Shown piece after piece: positions 2,318 through 53,161 of a stretch of DNA of 64,000 nucleotides. The stretch's first letter is position 1; every line of letters starts with the position of its first letter. The position numbers were made by a program, and so were the translations under genes. The notes under the pieces are model-generated. The model ran no database searches. It was not told the origin of the DNA and saw only the letters and a list, made by a program, of their open reading frames with translations. The DNA is from Candidatus Methanodesulfokora washburnensis (GTDB lineage Archaea > Korarchaeota > Korarchaeia > Korarchaeales > Korarchaeaceae). The stretch covers positions 1-64,000 of the forward strand of contig NZ_RCOS01000113.1 of NCBI RefSeq assembly GCF_003947435.1. The letters run 5' to 3'.

Positions 2318-2935
2318 TCACTCACCTCTCTTTATCTGTCTGTACTTCTTTATAGTCAAGAATTCCTCTAGATCTTCCTCCTCGAGCAATTCCTCTACAT
2401 ATTTTATTGCTGCAACATAGTCAGGAATCACTATCTTTTCAAGTGCATTCACTTTTCTCATTGTCTGAGCTAAGGCCTCTGCTATTCTTTCAAACCTAGC
2501 CTCTGCATTTACTAGCGGCATCATCTCTTTTATGGCTTCAGAAAGCTTTACTGCAGCAGCCATAACTGCTGAATTAAGAGAAGGTGAGACTGCAAGCCTG
2601 AACTCAGATGCTGTTATCTCTGGAGTCTCAACTCCGACAACGCTTTTAGTCCTAACTTCTATCTTCAGAGGCGTCGCTAAAAGGGCTGCCTTTCTCATCT
2701 CCTGAGGCCCGGCTACTGCATATGCCATCTTCACCATGAAAAATGCTTCTTCTAGCTTCTTATCTATATCCTTCCTGGCATGAAGCTGTTTCAATAGCTC
2801 TTGACTTTCCCTTATAAGCTGGTCCCTTTTCATCTTGAGTGCCTCTATTCCCATTTGCAAAAGAGCCGCTCTTTCTCTCAGCCTGATAAGAAATCCTTTT
2901 GTGGGAAGTATTCTTCCAACAGACCTAAAGCTCAT
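2318..2935 (-). CDS. atpD: A/V-type ATP synthase subunit D
   Basis: Central rotor shaft. The 205-residue protein has long N- and C-terminal helices suited to an antiparallel coiled coil. The N-terminal segment with PTKGFLIRLRERAALLQMG matches the family start (typically P-T-K then a long helix), and the C-terminal region is acidic. The start codon overlaps the atpB stop by one base, and atpC follows with no gap, which implies translational coupling. Confidence 0.92.
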   Translation of the reverse strand: MSFRSVGRILPTKGFLIRLRERAALLQMGIEALKMKRDQLIRESQELLKQLHARKDIDKKLEEAFFMVKMAYAVAGPQEMRKAALLATPLKIEVRTKSVVGVETPEITASEFRLAVSPSLNSAVMAAAVKLSEAIKEMMPLVNAEARFERIAEALAQTMRKVNALEKIVIPDYVAAIKYVEELLEEEDLEEFLTIKKYRQIKRGE

Positions 2936-5900
2936 CAGATCCCCTCATATACTACTGCCTTCTCCTCTCTCAGCTTTGGATGAAACTTTCTTATGGTTCC
3001 ATCGCTTATTCTAGTTAGTTCTCCTTCAGGAAGCATTGATAAGACATCCCAGGCTATGTCGAGAGTTTCCTCTATTGTTCTTCTTTCCTTAAAGCCCTGT
3101 GATAGGAGTCTCTCTTCAAATCTCTTGGCAAACTCCAGATAGAGCCTCTCCCTCTCGCTTAAGCCCGCCTCTCCTACTATTTTCACAAGCTCTCTAGCCT
3201 TAACTCCCTGGCTATATGAAGCATAAAGCTGATCCGACACCTCTTTATGATCCTCCCTTGTTTTTCCAGCACCTATTCCATCTTTCATAAGCCTGCTCAA
3301 GCTGGGAAGGACATTTATAGGTGGATATATCCCTCTGTTGAAGAGGTCTAGATCCAAGAAGATCTGCCCCTCAGTTATATATCCCGTGAGATCTGGTATA
3401 GGATGAGTAAGATCACCTCCGGGCATTGTCAATATTGGCATGAATGTTATAGAGCCGGGTTTTCCCTTTATCCTTCCAGCTCTCTCATATATAGAGGCTA
3501 GGTCACTATACATGTATCCCGGATAGCCTTTTCTGCTGGGAACTTCTTCTCTTGCTGAACTGAGCTCCCTTAACGCCTCGCAATTTGATGTTATTATCCC
3601 ATTGGCCACAATTAGCCTGCTTGTGGCTGGAACAGTGATATCATAAACAAAATCATGCTCGCTGGAAACCTCTGCTATGCTAACTATCTTGTCAAGCACA
3701 TAGTTGCCATTGCACATCCTTCTAAGTGCAACATAATCTGGATCCTCATTGTTTACAAACCTGCTGAGCCTGTTCAACCACCTCTCCAGCGTCTTTCTCG
3801 ATATTCTCTTCCTCAGATTCTCGAAATCAGATATATTACCTGAAGCTTCTATTGACTTCTGTGAAATTCCATACCTCTCTCTAAGTCTTTTGAACACCAA
3901 AGCTGCCCCCTTAGGCGCTAATCTCGCCTTCTCTGCTTTATATGAATTAAGTTTGGAGAGCATCTCTACCAATTTCATGAGTTTAGCTCTCTTTTCTGAA
4001 TGAGCTAGCTTAATTCCAGAAGCAAGCCTCAACACGTCAGTTTTACCTCTTACTACAATATCATATACTGTAGATGTCTTCCATCCCCTGCTAACTCTGC
4101 TTACAATAGAGCTCTGAACTCCCATCCTTTTCAGAAGAAGCTGGATTCTGTTAGCCCTGAGCCTGCTTGAAGTCGTAATTATCACTGCTTTATTCCTCAG
4201 ATTTATGCTACCATCTCCATCTATATAACCTGACAGAAATTCTCCTATATATTTTCTCGGCAACCTGACTATAGGCAGAAGTTCCTCCTTCTCTCCAGGC
4301 CTAGCCAAGCTCTTGAGAATGGAATAAGCCAAGGCATTTGCAAACCTAATCATAAATACCCCATTTTGGTCCCTCTGAACTTTTGCTCTAGGACCAATGA
4401 ATGAGGATGTGAAATAGCGAGTGAACTCATCTATAAGCTCCTTGGACTTTGCTGAGAATCCAACTATATATTGTGATTGATATTTTGCGATATATCCATC
4501 GGACATAACCCAACCTAATAATCTTAAAATCTCCGGAGTTATTTTATAGTTTGGTATCCTAGTGCTAATTTTCTTCCCAGCTGTAATTCTATCAACATGT
4601 CCAGCTATATCTTTCATGCTGATTCCCAGTTCATTTGATATCTTCAGAACATCGGAGAGACTTAATGCTCTCTTAAACTTAGCCTCCGTAAACTTCCTGT
4701 AGCTTATTCCTAGCCTATTAGATGAAGCTTTCAGGTTACCATATCTCTCTATAAGCTTCTTTTCAAGCCAATCATCCTTGAAGTGCAGGTAAAACATGTT
4801 AGGATTATCCTGTAGAAGAGTTAGTACGTCTGGAACTTCCTCTTCCACTTCTATTGTTTCGATCGAATAGACCTCATCCCCTATTCTCAGCTCCTTTGCT
4901 GGAATCATTCTTGGCCCAGAAATGGTATCCACTAAAATCTTATGATCTGGAGTAACTTTAAGGATTGCTCCGCTTCTAAAAGTGATCTCTAGGAGCTTTC
5001 CAGAGTAGGCTACTTTCTCAACTGCTCCTACTTTTGCCTTTGTGTGCTGAAATTCGTTCCATGATAGTACTGTATAAGGACATTGTTGTGATGAGATTAC
5101 TCCCAATTGAAGCAAACCTGACCCATTTCTCATGTCAATAAGTTTTCCTGCTTTTCCAGCAGCTAATTCAACTATCTCACCTATTGGTCTGGTGGTTCCA
5201 TCCGCTAGAATTACCTCAGTATCCCCAGCAAAGCAATAGTTGGTCATATCGGTTACTATCACTAAAACATCCATGTCCAGATCAAAGGCCAAGTACTCTG
5301 CTGCAGTTAGTGCAACCCTTGGTGTGGTTATCCTCTCTATCACTGGGTCATTCGCTAGATTAAGGAACAGAATTGACCTGCTTAATGCACCGAACTCCTC
5401 AAATTGTTTCCTGAAGAACAATATATCATCATACTTGAGCCCTACTGCAGCAAACACTATTGCAAATCTCTCCGATTTCCCGGGAACTACCGCCTGTCTT
5501 GCTATTTGAGCAGCAACCATGTTATGGGGTAGTCCTGCTTCAGAGAAAAGGGGTAACTTTTGGCCTCTGACTAAGCTCAACATCCCATCAATTACGGATA
5601 TCCCCGTTTCAACAAATTCGTCTGGGTAATCTCTTTTCACTGGATTTATCGGTGCTCCATTTATGTCCCTATAATCATCGGCTCTGATGGGAGGCCCACC
5701 GTCTATAGGCATTCCTGATCCATTGAACACCCTTCCGAGCATCTCATCTGAGACAGGAAGCTTCAACGTGCTCCCTGTGAACTTCACCATGACTTTTGTT
5801 TCTAGTCCTTCTGTATCACCCAAAACCTGCAGTATTGTCTTCCCCTTTCCCACTTCTATCACTTGACCAAGCCACTCTCTCCCATCATCGGAGTAGAACC

Positions 5901-6000
5901 TGACTACCTCCTCATACGATGCATCGGGAACCCCCCTCATGATGACTAGGGGGCCCTTCACCTGTTCTATTCCTCTATACACTTTCCCATAAAGGGCCAT
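2935..6000 (-). CDS. atpB: A/V-type ATP synthase subunit B, interrupted by an intein
   Basis: Regulatory (non-hydrolysing) nucleotide-site subunit of the A3B3 head. The reading frame encodes 1021 residues. Residues 1-255 and 807-1021 join to give a 470-residue B subunit of normal length; residues 256-806 are an intein (separate entry). Family features include [19 protein letters not shown] (about 135-153) and, after the intein, [20 protein letters not shown]. Insertion falls in DMTNY/CEALRE, a highly conserved segment beside the nucleotide-interface loop, with Cys807 as the +1 extein nucleophile. The gene overlaps atpD by one base and abuts atpA. Splicing must occur for a working ATPase. Confidence 0.95.
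3583..5235 (-). mobile_element. LAGLIDADG-endonuclease intein in atpB (551 residues)
   Basis: Self-splicing protein element within the B subunit (protein residues 256-806). Block A begins with Cys256 in [13 protein letters not shown]. Block B has VTPDHKILV with the usual T-x-x-H. Two dodecapeptide motifs of a LAGLIDADG homing endonuclease are intact: LLGWVMSDG (acidic D501) and LSGYIDGDG (acidic D596). The C-terminal block ends [10 protein letters not shown] followed by Cys807. The penultimate residue is Ser rather than the usual His, a known tolerated variation. Helix-turn-helix-like segments lie at about 445-470 and 705-740. Both endonuclease acids are present, so homing activity looks possible. 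Confidence 0.93.
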
Positions 6001-7781: not shown

Positions 7782-8402
7782 CTAGCTCCCTCCCAATATC
7801 ATATCTAGTATCCTCCTCTGATTTCTGTCAAAGTAGTCTCTAAGCCTCCCCTCAAAAGTTCCATAAAATCTTATGGAATCATCTTCATTTCTCATGATCA
7901 CTCCTCCCAAGGATTGGATGCTCCTATCATCCAGCCTTATCTCCACGTTCATCTCTTTAGAGATTCTTTCACTTATCTTTTTGATCATTTCCTTGTCCTT
8001 CTCTCTAGATGCCACATAAACAACTTTACTTCCAAGCACATTAATGCCCTCTTTAATATATCTCTCGAGCACTTCCTCGTAGTTTATTTTTCCCTTCCCA
8101 TCCGAGATTTTTGCCAGTTCTTCTTCTATTCTAGCCTCTATTTCTCTTAGAATGCTCTTTTTAGCCTCCATTAATATTTTCTTGGCCTCTATTTCAGCAA
8201 CGCTTTTTCTTCTCATAGCCTCTTCTGCAGCTTCTCTTTCTGCTTTTTCCCTCTTAGCCATCATTATTCTCTCTGCCTCCCTTCTTGCTTCTTCTATTAT
8301 TCTCTCTGCCTCCTTTTTTGCCTCCTCTATTATCTCTTCTGCTCTTCTCTTTGCCATGCTGAGAATTGCATTGACTATGACTTCAGCCCCTTCCTCACTC
8401 AC
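7782..8402 (-). CDS. atpE: A/V-type ATP synthase peripheral stalk subunit E
   Basis: Peripheral stalk (stator) subunit that pairs with subunit H. The 206-residue protein has an N-terminal right-handed coiled-coil region rich in Ala, Glu, Lys and Arg (about residues 17-85) and a globular C-terminal head that binds A3B3. The start overlaps the end of atpH by 8 bases. A 77-bp tract in its coiled-coil part is identical to a tract in atpH (see repeats). Confidence 0.92.
   Translation of the reverse strand: MSEEGAEVIVNAILSMAKRRAEEIIEEAKKEAERIIEEARREAERIMMAKREKAEREAAEEAMRRKSVAEIEAKKILMEAKKSILREIEARIEEELAKISDGKGKINYEEVLERYIKEGINVLGSKVVYVASREKDKEMIKKISERISKEMNVEIRLDDRSIQSLGGVIMRNEDDSIRFYGTFEGRLRDYFDRNQRRILDMILGGS
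8279..8355 (-). repeat. 77-bp exact repeat, copy in atpE
   Basis: Identical over all 77 bases to 8547-8623 in atpH (offset 268). It encodes the shared coiled-coil stretch beginning AKRRAEEIIEEAKKEAER. Identity at silent positions points to recent duplication or gene conversion, not only shared heptad bias. A further partial copy of about 30 bases lies near 8467-8496. Confidence 0.9.
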
Positions 8403-8685
8403 CGAAGATCACCTCCCGAACCAGTATATCTAGCACATCATTTATTCTCATGTCTAACATCTTCTTTATTCTCTCTGCCTCCTTTTTTGCCTCCTCCACT
8501 ATCGAGTCAATATCAGAATTAGTCGAATGATCGATCTTCACCTGAGCCCTTCTTGCTTCTTCTATTATTCTCTCTGCCTCCTTTTTTGCCTCCTCTATTA
8601 TCTCTTCTGCTCTTCTCTTTGCCTCTTCCACCATATTCGAGGATTTTTTTTCGGCATCCATCAGTACTTCTACAAGTCTAGGCAT
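8395..8685 (-). CDS. atpH: A/V-type ATP synthase peripheral stalk subunit H (G)
   Basis: Small stator subunit forming a coiled coil with subunit E. It has 96 residues and is almost entirely charged helix with repeated E-E-A-K/R blocks, matching the archaeal AhaH/G type by size, composition and operon place (between atpF and atpE). The middle of the gene is a 77-bp exact copy of part of atpE. It ends 8 bases inside atpE. Confidence 0.88.
   Translation of the reverse strand: MPRLVEVLMDAEKKSSNMVEEAKRRAEEIIEEAKKEAERIIEEARRAQVKIDHSTNSDIDSIVEEAKKEAERIKKMLDMRINDVLDILVREVIFGE
8547..8623 (-). repeat. 77-bp exact repeat, copy in atpH
   Basis: Partner of 8279-8355. The two copies diverge at the very next base on both sides (g8546 against t8278; t8624 against a8356), so the tract has sharp limits. 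Confidence 0.9.
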
Positions 8686-8694
8686 AACATCACC

Positions 8695-9027
8695 TCATAT
8701 CTCCACCTCAGATGAGCCTATTGCCCTGGCTAGATAAGATTTTAGCTCATTTAACCTGATTCCTCTGGAACCTTCCATATCAGGTACCACTGCAAATACA
8801 GGAGTTATCCTCCCTCTATTTATAAGATCCATTCTTACGGGTGCTATTTTTTCAGCAACCCTCTCATTCACAAAAATAACCAAGGGCAGATTTTGCTCCT
8901 CCTTGAAAAACCTGAAAAGCTCTCTCGTTTCTTTTATGACGATAGCTCTTATTCCCACCATCTCAAATGCCATTGCCATTATCTCATCATCGACAACCGC
9001 CATAACTGAGTCTGAGCTTCCGCTCAT
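8695..9027 (-). CDS. atpF: A/V-type ATP synthase subunit F
   Basis: Small central-stalk subunit attached to subunit D, about 110 residues with a Rossmann-like fold; the N-terminal beta strand SVMAVVDDEIMAMAFEMVG fits the family. I chose the ATG at 9027, which is preceded by GGTG at a 6-base distance; a GTG at 9036 would add three residues. First gene of the - strand ATPase operon. A TATA-like box on the - strand centred near 9062 serves as promoter, close to the promoter of tRNA-Leu on the other strand. Confidence 0.9.
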   Translation of the reverse strand: MSGSSDSVMAVVDDEIMAMAFEMVGIRAIVIKETRELFRFFKEEQNLPLVIFVNERVAEKIAPVRMDLINRGRITPVFAVVPDMEGSRGIRLNELKSYLARAIGSSEVEI

Positions 9028-9054
9028 CTCATGCACCGAATGATGTTCTTTCTA

Positions 9055-16402: not shown

Positions 16403-16932
16403 CACTCGATTAGGTGTTTCTTACATAAATTCCTCAAAAGAGGCTCTGTTACAGCAGCTAGTACCAGTATTTCCGCCCAAGCCTTGAGAAGAACCATTAA
16501 TATAACAGTTTCGGTTACATATTGTGAGATTCCAGGAATAAAGACCGGAGCCCATATAGCCATGGTTAAATAGGTAAAAATCGACTCTGGCACATATCCA
16601 ATCACTATAGCTGTAAATGGCCTAATTTTTCTCATTAATATAGATGAAAATATACCAGTGAGAGCTTTTCCCGGAAAGATCAAAAGACCGAATAACGGTC
16701 CGTATGCACCTTGGAGCCCAAATCTTATGTATGGGGATATAGACACTATGATACCGGTAAGGCCTCCGTAAATAGGACCTAGCATACCAGCTGAGAGGAA
16801 TGTCCCTATGTGGGACAGATCCAAAGCTATTTGTGGATGAATCAACGTTAGAAGCTCAAGCGAAGAAAAGCCAAGCACATTTCCAAGAGCTCCTAACATC
16901 ACAGATAGAACAAACTTCTGCCCTTTGTTCAC
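16384..16932 (-). CDS. small membrane protein resembling an ECF transporter S component
   Basis: A 182-residue protein with about five to six hydrophobic helices and glycine-rich turns (GPIYGGLTGIIVS, GPLFGLLIFPGKALTG), the general look of the substrate-binding S subunits of energy-coupling-factor vitamin transporters. The substrate cannot be told. The energizing module EcfA-EcfA-EcfT lies 35 kb away at 51528-53892 and could serve it. The C-terminus is unusual, with a cysteine-rich tail CKKHLIECYCECR. It ends inside the agmatinase 3' end. Confidence 0.55.
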   Translation of the reverse strand: MNKGQKFVLSVMLGALGNVLGFSSLELLTLIHPQIALDLSHIGTFLSAGMLGPIYGGLTGIIVSISPYIRFGLQGAYGPLFGLLIFPGKALTGIFSSILMRKIRPFTAIVIGYVPESIFTYLTMAIWAPVFIPGISQYVTETVILMVLLKAWAEILVLAAVTEPLLRNLCKKHLIECYCECR

Positions 16933-17015
16933 TGAATATCACCGCATATAGCGAAGAAGATGGAGATAAAAATATTTTGTTTTTGATTTTTGTTTCATAA
17001 ATGGAATAATAAATC

Positions 17016-18128
17016 TCAGATTTTTGCCAGCTCTATCTGTTCTTTTCTAAGAGCTTTCCTAATCTCATCAACAAGCAAATCTATTCCCATCTCTTTTTCA
17101 GCCGATATGGCAACTATTCTATCGAAACCAGCTTTTTTAAGCTCTATTGACCTCCATTCCAGTTCCTCCGGGCTCATTAGATCAGATTTATTCAAAACAG
17201 GAATTATCTTTTCTCTCGCCACTCCTATGCTATCGAGAATTCTGAGCACTTCCTTTAGCTTAAGTTGGAACTTAGCCCATTTATCAGAGGAATCTATCAC
17301 AAGCACAACAATATCTGAGTTCAGAATATCCAATAGGTTTATCTCAAAGGAGGATATAAGCCTTGGATCCTGATCTACAACAAATCCTATTGTATCAACT
17401 ATCAATAGATTATCTCCAACCTTTGCATACTTGCTTGAGAGAGTAGTAAAGGGAAGCGGTCCAACCGGCCTATTAAGACCTGTTAGTTTGTTAAAAAGAG
17501 TTGTCTTTCCAGCGTTGTAGTGTCCCACAAGCACGGCTATCTTATCTCCTCTGCTTTTTCTTTTCTCTATTTCGAGCATTCTTGCCTCCTTTATTTTCTC
17601 TATCTTATTCTTGAGTATCTTTATCCTCTTCTGAACTGCATTTATTTGTTTGTGATAAGCATACTCTCCGCCTCCTTTGAATCCTGCCCTTGTCTTCTTG
17701 AATTTCATTGCCGCTTGTAGTTTTATGTATGGAAAGGATTTTCTCAGCTCAGCCAATTGTATCTGAAGTTTAGATAGTATGTCTCTGGATGTCTCATTGA
17801 ATATCCTCAGAACGACATCGTATCTATCCAGAACCTCAGCTCTCAAGGCTTTCTCCAAGTTCCACTTTTGCTTACTTGTTAGGGTGTTGTAAAATACAAT
17901 TATATCGGGATCTATCGCCTTAACCTTGTCCTTCAGTTCCTCAAGCTTTCCTCTGCCGAGAAGATAATCCACTGCTGGCTTGCTTCTAGTCTGTATCATT
18001 CTGTAAGCTACATTATATCCTAGGGCCTCAAGAAGTTCATTTAGAATTTCCATTCTTATTAGATAGTTGGAATGATCGTGTATCTCTGTTTTTACCATCA
18101 CCGTTACTGCTTTTCCTGCCACAAGCAT
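17016..18128 (-). CDS. hflX: GTPase HflX
   Basis: Translation-associated GTPase that binds the large ribosomal subunit. The 370-residue protein has an N-terminal glycine-rich HflX domain (VDYLLGRGKLEEL), a basic helical linker, and a G domain with P-loop VGHYNAGKT (201-209), G3 DTIGF (about 245) and G4 NKSD (about 311). The P-loop shows GHYNAGKT where bacterial proteins have GYTNAGKS. A - strand TATA-like ACTTATATCC at 18143-18152 lies close before the ATG, suggesting a leaderless or very short-leader transcript. Confidence 0.92.
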   Translation of the reverse strand: MLVAGKAVTVMVKTEIHDHSNYLIRMEILNELLEALGYNVAYRMIQTRSKPAVDYLLGRGKLEELKDKVKAIDPDIIVFYNTLTSKQKWNLEKALRAEVLDRYDVVLRIFNETSRDILSKLQIQLAELRKSFPYIKLQAAMKFKKTRAGFKGGGEYAYHKQINAVQKRIKILKNKIEKIKEARMLEIEKRKSRGDKIAVLVGHYNAGKTTLFNKLTGLNRPVGPLPFTTLSSKYAKVGDNLLIVDTIGFVVDQDPRLISSFEINLLDILNSDIVVLVIDSSDKWAKFQLKLKEVLRILDSIGVAREKIIPVLNKSDLMSPEELEWRSIELKKAGFDRIVAISAEKEMGIDLLVDEIRKALRKEQIELAKI

Positions 18129-18330
18129 TCCTACTTCTGGAGGATATAAGTTTTCTGCACTGGGTTAAGTACTCCCCATACTTTATATTAGTTGTACAAG
18201 GATACAAAAATTTTAAAGGATCATATAACTAATAAATGACTGATTTCTCATGCCTGCGCAAGAAAATTAGAAAAATAATTCCAATAATTAACGGCCAAAG
18301 TTTTTATAATCCTGATCTTATTAAATCTAT

Positions 18331-19680
18331 TTATTTAGGAATTATTGGTCTCTCATAAAGCTCTTTAGGACCCTTTATTGTCGCATCTATTATCAGTTTG
18401 GATTGAGGCAGCGCCACAGGAACCTGCCTTCCATTAATCTCCATGTACCTTATGTTACTGTGATCTAAAGTTGATCCTCTAGCACCCTTTATAAATATAT
18501 AATCATCGGGAACATGAGCTCTTTGGTTAATAGCTCTCATTACTTCTTCATAGTTATATACATCAATGTCATCATCCACTATAATAATTCTCTTGAGGCT
18601 TCTGTGGGCATTTATCGCCGCAATTGCCGCCATAACAGGCTGACCTTCGAAATTCTTTCTTATGCTTATCGCTGCTTCAAGCCATCCAAATCCTCCAGGG
18701 GTCATAGATACTCCAGTGACATCGCAGTATCTACTAACCGAGTCGAATATAACTGCCTCCACTGGAAGTCCCATTAACATCTCATGTTCCTTGCTAGCAG
18801 GAAGTATAGCTTGGTATATAGCCTCATCTCTGTAAAGAACCCTATCAATAGTTAAAATCGGTTGCTTTCTTATTATATCTTTCCCTATTATCTCATAAAA
18901 TGGCCCCTCCTCCCTTAGATCCCAAGGTATTATCCTCCCAACCAAGACAATCTCCGAGAAGGCAGGTATTGCCAGATCCTCCTCTCTAACAATAGATATA
19001 GGATCTCCCTGTATTGAGCCTGCTATTTCCACCCTGTCTTTGTCCTCGGCTGGAGTAGCAGCTGCTATGATAAGACCTAGCTCTGAGCCTATGGATACCA
19101 CAACCTTTAGATCTTTTCCGTTCTTTTCAGCTCTTTTTACAAGTTTGTAAAGTTTTCTTCCTTCAACTATTCTTAATGTAAGAATATTTTTGGAGATGAG
19201 CATCATTCTATGGTACGATGCTGAGAATATCTTGTTTTCGTTATCATATGCTATAATTATACCTGCTGTTATGTATCTAGATGGTTCCCCACTGTAGTGC
19301 TTCAGGATAGGCAATAGATTACCTATATCCACCCTATCTCCCTCTACAGAATTTCGCATAACAGGAGCTTCTGTTTTTTCTACCTCTATAGGTTTTATTC
19401 CTGAGCTTATTGCTTCCAGTATCCTCTTAGAGATATCCCTTTCTGTACTAAGACCCAAAAGCAGCTTGATAAATGTCCTATTATTTGCTATTCCTCCTAA
19501 AACTCTGAATTTGCTCTCTTTTCCATCCGGCATTACTGGCTTCTCAAACAAAACAGGTCCTTTTCCATCTAGAAGTCTTAAATGATATGAGATTCCATGT
19601 ATAACATTAACAGGTTCCTTTATCACATTGATGAACCCATTTCTGTTAGCGGTTTCTACTATTCTCCTTATATCAAACAT
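18331..19680 (-). CDS. UbiD-family prFMN-dependent decarboxylase
   Basis: A 449-residue UbiD-type decarboxylase that uses prenylated FMN. The overall layout matches the family: ITAGIIIAYD, SYHRMMLISKN, then LVGRIIPWDLREEGPFYEI with acidic catalytic-region residues. In most archaea a UbiD homologue decarboxylates trans-anhydromevalonate 5-phosphate in the modified mevalonate pathway, a good candidate role here because archaea lack ubiquinone. Its start lies 60 bases from the divergent aspS start. Confidence 0.85.
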   Translation of the reverse strand: MFDIRRIVETANRNGFINVIKEPVNVIHGISYHLRLLDGKGPVLFEKPVMPDGKESKFRVLGGIANNRTFIKLLLGLSTERDISKRILEAISSGIKPIEVEKTEAPVMRNSVEGDRVDIGNLLPILKHYSGEPSRYITAGIIIAYDNENKIFSASYHRMMLISKNILTLRIVEGRKLYKLVKRAEKNGKDLKVVVSIGSELGLIIAAATPAEDKDRVEIAGSIQGDPISIVREEDLAIPAFSEIVLVGRIIPWDLREEGPFYEIIGKDIIRKQPILTIDRVLYRDEAIYQAILPASKEHEMLMGLPVEAVIFDSVSRYCDVTGVSMTPGGFGWLEAAISIRKNFEGQPVMAAIAAINAHRSLKRIIIVDDDIDVYNYEEVMRAINQRAHVPDDYIFIKGARGSTLDHSNIRYMEINGRQVPVALPQSKLIIDATIKGPKELYERPIIPK

Positions 19681-51527: not shown

Positions 51528-52364
51528 ATGATCAGAATAGAGGATGTAACTTTTACCTATGCCGGAAGGAAAAAGCCTGCTATAAGGAATGTAAACCTTG
51601 ATATAAATCGTGGGGAGTTTATTCTAGTAGTTGGAGCCAGTGGAAGTGGAAAATCCACATTGTTGAGGCTCTTAAATGGACTTATACCGCATTTCTATGA
51701 GGGGGAGTTCAGGGGAAGAGTCTTAGTTGATGGTGTTGACACAAGGGAAACCAGCGTATCAAAGCTATCTAGAAAGATCGGTTTGGTATTTCAAAACCCA
51801 GATAACCAGATAGTAACTTTGCATGTGAAGAGAGAGCTTGCATTTGGGCTTGAGAATATAGGAATGAGGAGGGAAGAGATAGAAAAGAGGATAAGAGGAA
51901 TTATAAAGGAGATTCATATGGAGAGAATCGAGGATAAATACACGGATGAGTTGAGTGGAGGGGAAAAGCAGCTTCTGGCCATAGCCGCAACCCTTGCGAT
52001 GGAGCCCGATATAATAGTCTTAGACGAGCCTACAAGTGAGTTGGACACTGCTAACGCTATGAGAATAGCAGGTATATTGAGGAAAGTCCATGAAAAGGGG
52101 AAGGGTGTGATTGTATCGGAGCACAGACTGGATCTTTTCATCCCCTTAGCTGATAGAATAGTTGTCATAGACGATGGAGTTATAGTAGCAGACGGTCCTG
52201 CCAAAAAAATAGTCAAAGAAGTAGATTTCGCAAAACACAGAATAAATGAGCCCCTAGCTATAAGAATTTACAGAGAGGTCACTAGAAGAGGAATTAGTAT
52301 TGAAGAAGTTCCACTGGGAGTGAAGGACATCATAGAATTTCTAAGAAAGGTGAGAGGGAATTGA
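51528..52364 (+). CDS. ecfA1: ECF transporter ATPase 1
   Basis: ATPase subunit of an energy-coupling-factor importer, 278 residues: Walker A GASGSGKST (36-44), Q-loop near VFQNPDNQIVTLHV, signature LSGGEKQLL, Walker B IIVLDEP and an H-loop in VSEHRLD. VFQNPDNQ is typical of EcfA proteins. The paralogue starts in its stop codon. A 103-bp tract is identical to one in that paralogue. Confidence 0.93.
   Translation: MIRIEDVTFTYAGRKKPAIRNVNLDINRGEFILVVGASGSGKSTLLRLLNGLIPHFYEGEFRGRVLVDGVDTRETSVSKLSRKIGLVFQNPDNQIVTLHVKRELAFGLENIGMRREEIEKRIRGIIKEIHMERIEDKYTDELSGGEKQLLAIAATLAMEPDIIVLDEPTSELDTANAMRIAGILRKVHEKGKGVIVSEHRLDLFIPLADRIVVIDDGVIVADGPAKKIVKEVDFAKHRINEPLAIRIYREVTRRGISIEEVPLGVKDIIEFLRKVRGN
51647..51749 (+). 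repeat. 103-bp exact repeat, copy in ecfA1
   Basis: Every base equals 52480-52582 in ecfA2 (offset 833). It covers the end of Walker A through LLNGLIPHFYEGEFRGRVLV to DTRE. Flanking sequence diverges at once on both sides. Such identity at silent sites amid diverged paralogues indicates gene conversion or very recent segmental copying. Confidence 0.93.
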
Positions 52365-53161
52365 TAGAGATAGAAAGAGTGAGTTTTAAGTATTCAGGAT
52401 CAAATGAATATGCGTTAAAAGACCTAAGCCTCTCCATAAGCAGGCCTAGTATAACAGCTATCGTTGGAAGAAATGGTGCTGGAAAATCCACATTGTTGAG
52501 GCTCTTAAATGGACTTATACCGCATTTCTATGAGGGGGAGTTCAGGGGAAGAGTCTTAGTTGATGGTGTTGACACAAGGGAAGTTGATATCTCTGATCTC
52601 TCAAGAAAGGTGGGTTTAGTATTTCAGAATCCAGAGCATATGTTCTTCTCCGAGACTGTATGGGATGAAGTCATCTTTGGACCTAAAGCACTGGGAAGGA
52701 ATGATTTTGAGGAATTAGGGGAAAAAGCATTGAGATTAACCGGGTTAACTGATATGAAGGATTATCCTCCTTGGTCTCTCAGTGGAGGAGAGATGAAGAG
52801 GCTATCTATAGCCTGCATCTTGTCCATGGAGACTGATTATATAGCCCTGGATGAACCAACTGTTGGACAAGATGCTGTATCAAGGAGGGAGCTAATAGAG
52901 ATCTTGAGGAATTTAAGGAATATGGGAAAGGGAATTATAGTAGTTTCTCATGATTTAGAATGGATCTCCGACCTTAGACCGGATAGAATAATTGTGATCA
53001 GAGATGGTTATGTGTTTGTAGATGGAGGTCGTGATCTCTTAGCTGATGTCACTATACTGGCTAGAGCGGGTCTAATTCCTCCAATGAGTGCGATAATTGG
53101 AAGAGCGATTGGAGTGAGAGGTTTTGGGATTGATGACATCTTGAAGGAGGTCTTAGGTTGA
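52361..53161 (+). CDS. ecfA2: ECF transporter ATPase 2
   Basis: Second ATPase of the ECF module, 266 residues. It has Walker A GRNGAGKST (about 37-45), VFQNPEHMFFSETVWDEV, signature LSGGEMKRLS and Walker B YIALDEP, with H-loop VVSHDLEW. The TTG start overlaps the ecfA1 stop. The two ATPases pair as a heterodimer on EcfT, whose gene starts in the ecfA2 stop. Confidence 0.93.
   Translation: MIEIERVSFKYSGSNEYALKDLSLSISRPSITAIVGRNGAGKSTLLRLLNGLIPHFYEGEFRGRVLVDGVDTREVDISDLSRKVGLVFQNPEHMFFSETVWDEVIFGPKALGRNDFEELGEKALRLTGLTDMKDYPPWSLSGGEMKRLSIACILSMETDYIALDEPTVGQDAVSRRELIEILRNLRNMGKGIIVVSHDLEWISDLRPDRIIVIRDGYVFVDGGRDLLADVTILARAGLIPPMSAIIGRAIGVRGFGIDDILKEVLG
52480..52582 (+). repeat. 103-bp exact repeat, copy in ecfA2
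   Basis: Partner of 51647-51749. The tract begins right after the last variable base of the P-loop region and stops where the two proteins diverge (DTREV here, DTRET in ecfA1). Confidence 0.93.

Follow-up and report, generated by a model that had tools for sequence, protein, structure and literature searches.

How do two genes that encode different subunits of one enzyme come to share a block of DNA without a single difference? The question is raised by the peripheral-stalk genes atpE and atpH of the A-type ATP synthase in Candidatus Methanodesulfokora washburnensis (family Korarchaeaceae), which lie in a stretch of 64 kb that was analysed as a whole and that we call the window. The source genome is a MAG of 2.94 Mb in 179 contigs, with 5.47% contamination. 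As described in PMC6131620, the E and G/H subunits are right-handed coiled coils whose repeat unit is the hendecad of 11 residues, and they are partners in E/G stalks. A shared stretch of helix might thus seem unsurprising at the protein level, and it is the identity of the codons, the extent and ends of the identical block, and its behaviour in related genomes that need to be accounted for.

The ATP synthase operon

The A-type ATP synthase genes of the window lie on the minus strand in the order F-H-E-A-B-D-C. Next to atpF (8695-9036, minus strand; A-type ATP synthase subunit F) lies atpH (8395..8685, minus strand), which encodes the 96-aa peripheral-stalk subunit H (G-like) and has its last 8 nt in common with the start of atpE. 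The atpE gene (7782..8402, minus strand) encodes the 206-aa peripheral-stalk subunit E, which matches PF01991 at 1.1e-24 and passes its curated cut-off (87.4 bits vs 24.2). By contrast, atpH falls below the curated cut-offs of both TIGR02926 (AhaH; 23.3 bits vs 48.5) and PF16999 (V-ATPase_G_2; 27.0 vs 28), and its name rests not on models but on its position within F-H-E-A-B-D-C and on 35-45% identity to the H genes of the family. Its top NCBIfam match is the subunit E model PRK01005 (1.4e-7, below cut-off), so that automatic annotation could misname it.

Two further features of the operon deserve mention. Subunit B (2935-6000, minus strand) contains an intein with a LAGLIDADG domain, while the sister genome G002 has at this gene an open frame of 480 aa and is thus apparently without the intein. 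In subunit A, G002 is 96% identical to the window, whereas a second genome labelled as the same genus (G001, locus L080, G001:C7:24780-26525) reaches 54%; either its ATPase has been replaced or the label is at fault, and at this level of identity the G001 ATPase was left out of the comparisons below.

An exact 77-nt tract shared by atpE and atpH

An initial annotation, made from the sequence alone, had pointed to a 77-base block common to both genes, free of differences and with abrupt ends. Such a block is indeed present, as an exact direct repeat of 77 nt at 8279-8355 in atpE and 8547-8623 in atpH (both minus strand, 268 from start to start). It covers codons 17-41 of atpE, the probable donor, and codons 22-46 of atpH, the probable recipient, is read in the same frame in both and encodes AKRRAEEIIEEAKKEAERIIEEARR, with 88% purine in the coding strand. 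Beyond its ends, identity between the two genes drops to 0.36 over the 12 codons before and 0.29 over the 25 codons after. Compared with relatives, the tract columns are free of gaps in E and in H, that is, sequence was replaced in place and not inserted; the sole exception is the H gene of G023, which itself lacks 11 residues.

The third partial copy that had been placed near 8467 was also found. It lies in atpH at 8466..8496 (minus strand; codons 64-73, EEAKKEAERI), where 31 nt are exact, and it matches the 77-nt tract at 95% over 38 nt. It may be an older patch or a chance match, and we treat it as suggestive because the probability attached to it (P = 4.5e-4 for its 10 codons alone) precedes correction for the places compared. 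A diverged hendecad that neighbours the tract in atpE (8264..8301, minus strand), which matches the tract unit at 87% across 38 nt, is instead a native repeat of the coiled coil.

It is conceivable that the two genes converged, since each encodes a highly charged helix, the helices have the same composition and codon bias is strong. Some residues are in fact served by few codons in both genes (AGA 0.58, ATA 0.71), and the hendecad pattern is common to the two. However, Lys and Glu codons are split nearly evenly, and Ala has two common codons. With the identical residues taken as given, the probability of 25 identical codons is 4.3e-9 under the codon usage of the window, 8.9e-9 under that of E and H outside the tract, and 8.7e-8 when the tracts are themselves counted in the usage. 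A range of 4e-9 to 9e-8 rules out chance through codon bias, and it bears out the earlier remark that coiled-coil likeness can explain similar proteins but does not suffice for identical codons.

A survey of archaeal loci speaks against convergence as well. At 141 archaeal E loci we measured the longest exact run that E shares with the sequence around it. This run is 77 nt here and 23 nt in the runner-up (G235, likewise to an H-like gene), with a median of 13 and a maximum of 15 in the antisense control, so that none of the 140 other loci exceeds 23 nt. The sequence compared spans about 5 kb per side if the contig is long enough, and 1.5 kb at the 20 loci of the family; some contigs end near E and may lack H, which was named at only part of the loci. 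The loci stem from 141 genomes, namely the window, 20 of its family and 120 further archaeal genomes (among them G006, likewise of the family); an E match was present in 222 of 297 genomes, and 141 were surveyed. Matches of 20-32 nt in some relatives, and some of 14-17 nt, were set aside, as they begin at E position 1 and correspond to the H/E gene overlap. Taking codons and survey together, we give convergence a negligible probability.

The tract follows the genome and its flanks follow the gene

Comparison with relatives shows that the tract groups by genome and not by gene, as the initial annotation had anticipated for an exchange. Within this genome, E and H are identical in the tract (1.00), whereas the best identity of E to the 22 other E's is 0.68 and that of H to the 22 other H's 0.69, the tract of the sister G002 lying outside its contig. 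The flanks group by gene and resemble their orthologues at 0.45-0.58 on average. Hendecads are common to the E and H genes of the relatives, whose DNA identity in the tract columns averages 0.56 and reaches 0.64 at most; a shared E/H tract occurs in 0 of their 22 pairs. Moreover, the E and H of one relative resemble each other no more than an E and an H taken from different genera do, and the exchange is thus particular to this lineage, among the genomes seen. Nor are the same codons kept in both genes across the 22 pairs, an outcome that had been held to count against exchange.

These results divide the earlier proposal in two. That a segment was exchanged or converted between the two genes is well supported, both by the grouping of the tract by genome and by codon identity beyond chance. 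For the further idea, that such an exchange ties the two stalk subunits together in their evolution, no support was found: concerted evolution of the lasting kind reported in PMC6053082 was rejected for E and H on the 22 pairs, and a one-off event therefore does not establish lasting linkage between them.

Selection might also keep the two copies identical, either because identical helices form a pseudo-homodimeric segment of the stator or because the tract carries a shared DNA or RNA element. Both tracts do lie in the N-terminal coiled coils of subunits that, according to PMC6131620, pair in E/G stalks. Selection on the protein, however, does not fix codons, and since the tract is kept in none of the relatives' pairs, no conserved element is seen among them. 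We therefore regard selection as a very improbable source of the identity.

Assembly, local repeats and age

Because the source is a MAG of many contigs with some contamination, and because repeats that exceed the assembly word length invite artefacts, it is necessary to consider that H in truth carries a few differences from E, which the assembler erased in the middle of the gene by graph smoothing or polishing. Contig ends do lie at or near such tracts elsewhere: the first base of the sister G002's contig is 5 nt beyond the tract, and the contig of G018 ends inside the EcfA2 tract described below. However, each copy has two junctions that need reads of their own, and smoothing could remove one or two differences but could hardly build a patch of 77 nt with each gene's proper flanks around it; in addition, the frames are all open, and a similar tract is present in EcfA of the single-contig genome G009. 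An artefact thus appears improbable. With regard to G002, its contig holds 11 nt of the repeat sequence, and H and F were not found in the sister genome. The break hints at a repeat in the sister too, and to retain only 11 nt is an unusual signature. A wider contig scan returned only this sister contig and distant loci.

Other genomes, too, have long exact repeats at short distance. The window holds only one longer exact direct repeat, of 103 nt, which is shared by two neighbouring ABC-ATPase genes. Exact repeats of at least 60 nt within 5 kb number 5 in 330 kb of this genome (the window and 20 of the 179 contigs, at most the first 20 kb of each), 3 in 400 kb of G009 and, with any type of repeat counted, 5 in the 400 kb scanned of the distant archaeon G030, a similar count that speaks against special machinery. 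Elsewhere in the genome, tandem 135-nt repeats with exact runs of 84-97 nt occur at a contig end (L223, G000:C90, 1-430) in a gene that is perhaps TPR-like, to judge from the repeat, and an array that is CRISPR-like by appearance, with a repeat of ~25 nt, lies at 16669-19600 of another contig (L216, G000:C25).

The sister genome also provides a measure of age. Over residues 44-206 of atpE, G002 shows 81.4% DNA identity, a dS of 1.24 and a longest exact run of 32 nt; for atpA, dS is 1.09 and the longest exact orthologous run 26 nt. Thus, 77 identical nucleotides between different genes exceed the identity seen between orthologues. By simple arithmetic, zero differences in 25 codons place codon divergence below ~0.11 at 95%, while 0.35-0.39 of same-residue codons differ between the sisters. 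On this clock the copying is younger than the split from G002, or has been renewed since.

Direction of copying

Which gene served as donor is less clear, and we lean, with somewhat better than even confidence, towards copying from E to H. Against profiles built from the relatives, the tract reaches 38.8 bits for E and 32.0 bits for H, with a log-ratio of +8.2 bits for E, and its best match in another genus is an E segment (97, G007) and not an H segment (82). In mean DNA identity, however, the tract is about as close to the E genes of other genomes (0.58) as to their H genes (0.60).

It remains quite conceivable, if less so, that the same copying ran from H to E, or that several overlapping exchanges in both directions left a mosaic. 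The tract fits both profiles better than the opposite gene of the relatives does: on the H profile its 32.0 bits compare with at most 20.2 for the relatives' E segments, and on the E profile its 38.8 bits with at most 31.5 for their H segments. The third copy inside H would also fit overlapping exchanges. What tips the balance towards E as donor is the net score of +8.2 bits and the identity of the nearest foreign segment, the E of G007. The direction test misfires in genus g3, where all three H copies lean towards E, two of them strongly (+15.9 and +12.6) and the third slightly (+1.7). The g3 segments that score nearer the E than the H profile are those of G004 and G008a (L022, L023), perhaps owing to an older exchange or to convergence.

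A control case of conversion on the same contig

The 103-nt repeat offers an independent view of short-tract copying. It belongs to EcfA1 and EcfA2, adjacent ECF-transporter ATPase genes on the same contig as atpE and atpH (51528-53161, plus strand), and is exact between the Walker A region of EcfA1 (51647..51749, plus strand; gene 51528-52364) and the identical 103 nt of EcfA2 (52480..52582, plus strand; gene 52361-53161). All 11 complete EcfA pairs of the family (L249, L251-L259) carry a within-genome Walker-A tract that differs between genomes, the longest exact run ranging from 77 to 274 nt; G018, whose contig ends inside EcfA2, was left out of this count. Over 162 nt, EcfA1 and EcfA2 of one genome have a median identity of 0.99 (lowest 0.86, in this genome), whereas orthologues stand at 0.77. 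When the 11 genomes are compared in ordered pairs, the paralogue is nearer than the orthologue every time (110 of 110). The same is true of none of the 110 in the 144 nt downstream and of 22 in the 84 nt upstream, a stretch over which the two genes stay alike in G020 (identity 1.00) and G007 (0.87). Where it is resolved, the EcfA tree pairs A1 with A2 of one genome (several of these pairs have starred support), 10 of 18 inner branches being open. Since G009 also carries the tract and consists of one contig, fragmented assembly is no explanation there.

Judged by these alignments, the Walker-A tract of EcfA1/EcfA2 is a case of recurrent concerted evolution. Short-tract conversion between neighbouring genes thus happens in this family, which makes a conversion mechanism for E and H credible.

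A model for the exchange

We propose that a stretch of about 77 nt was very probably copied between atpE and atpH in a recent, homology-directed and non-reciprocal event, that is, by gene conversion in the broad sense. The N-terminal right-handed coiled coils of both proteins consist of 11-residue hendecads, encoded in units of 33 nt with a purine-rich coding strand, and because both genes are built in this manner they would offer short islands of similarity, 268 bp apart and in the same orientation, at which pairing could be seeded. Copying could then have proceeded by strand invasion or by a replication template switch followed by return, two routes that are indistinguishable here. The patch would have swapped the hendecads of the recipient codon for codon, leaving length and hendecad register unchanged, so that the stalk helix would presumably remain viable. 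According to PMC6131620, the b subunit of the F-ATPase tolerates swaps that fit the hendecad pattern. Residues 17-41 of E and 22-46 of H may face each other in the stalk.

Several points weigh against copying. An identity of ~0.56 between E and H in relatives represents little homology to seed recombination, long exact repeats within a few kb are not rare in the genomes scanned, and the event is seen in a single MAG. Taken together, the exchange nonetheless appears real and recent in this single genome, with an ordinary mechanism that joined, unusually, two different subunits. In keeping with the model, related repeat dynamics are seen inside H in the family, whose H hendecads appear to turn over by slippage. 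Exact repeats of 24-40 nt at a 33-nt offset are present in H of 7 of the 22 relatives (G004, G005, G008a, G009, G012, G014 and G019). Among the H genes compared (L007-L027), that of G023 lacks exactly one hendecad.

Discussion

Most descriptions of gene conversion concern genes that are clear duplicates, whereas E and H are different subunits whose evident likeness is confined to the repeated coiled-coil pattern. This suggests that helix-coding repeats may suffice for neighbours in an operon to trade segments, and it offers a concrete mechanism through which two partner helices might be altered jointly. There is also a practical corollary: profile searches can misname a gene with an exchanged segment, as the match of atpH to a subunit E model illustrates. 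A bolder and rather doubtful scenario is that hendecad segments of the stalk act as exchangeable cassettes, patches being copied often between adjacent genes of an operon and altering partner subunits together. It draws on the continual copying between EcfA1 and EcfA2 and on at least one copying between E and H; if true, partner subunits would change by the copying of DNA and not by separate compensating mutations.

A literature search, with few subscription journals and no preprints covered, returned no report of conversion between stalk subunits and no match for 'concerted evolution' together with 'peripheral stalk'. Several known systems nevertheless invite comparison. Gene conversion between mtrA-1 and mtrA-2 of methanogens (PMC4632066) likewise took place in one archaeal operon, between genes for one complex, and homogenised one domain while the remainder stayed distinct; however, mtrA-1 and mtrA-2 are clear duplicates with long-lasting conversion, whereas E and H are different subunits with 77 nt exchanged and seen once. 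Between the genes of the bacterial release factors RF1 and RF2 (PMC4530459), conversion likewise joined functionally different proteins, there members of one family, yet these are clear paralogues from an ancestral duplication and, by the title of the paper, underwent multiple conversions. Long-lasting recurrent concerted evolution has been described in PMC6053082 for 26 prokaryotic genes, most of which have undergone it for some 500 My; neither 'ATP synthase' nor 'ATPase' occurs in its main text. There, too, a paralogue is closer than the orthologue, the proteins mostly belong to the same complex, and tandem copies are included. Those genes are duplicates, unlike E and H, and it is the EcfA case that resembles them more. 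EcfA1 and EcfA2, for their part, differ from E and H in being true paralogues with a tract that recurs in all 11 complete pairs, but they share with E and H the adjacency of the two genes, the shortness of the tract, its abrupt ends and the same contig, and their recurrence throughout the family makes short-tract conversion in archaea directly testable.
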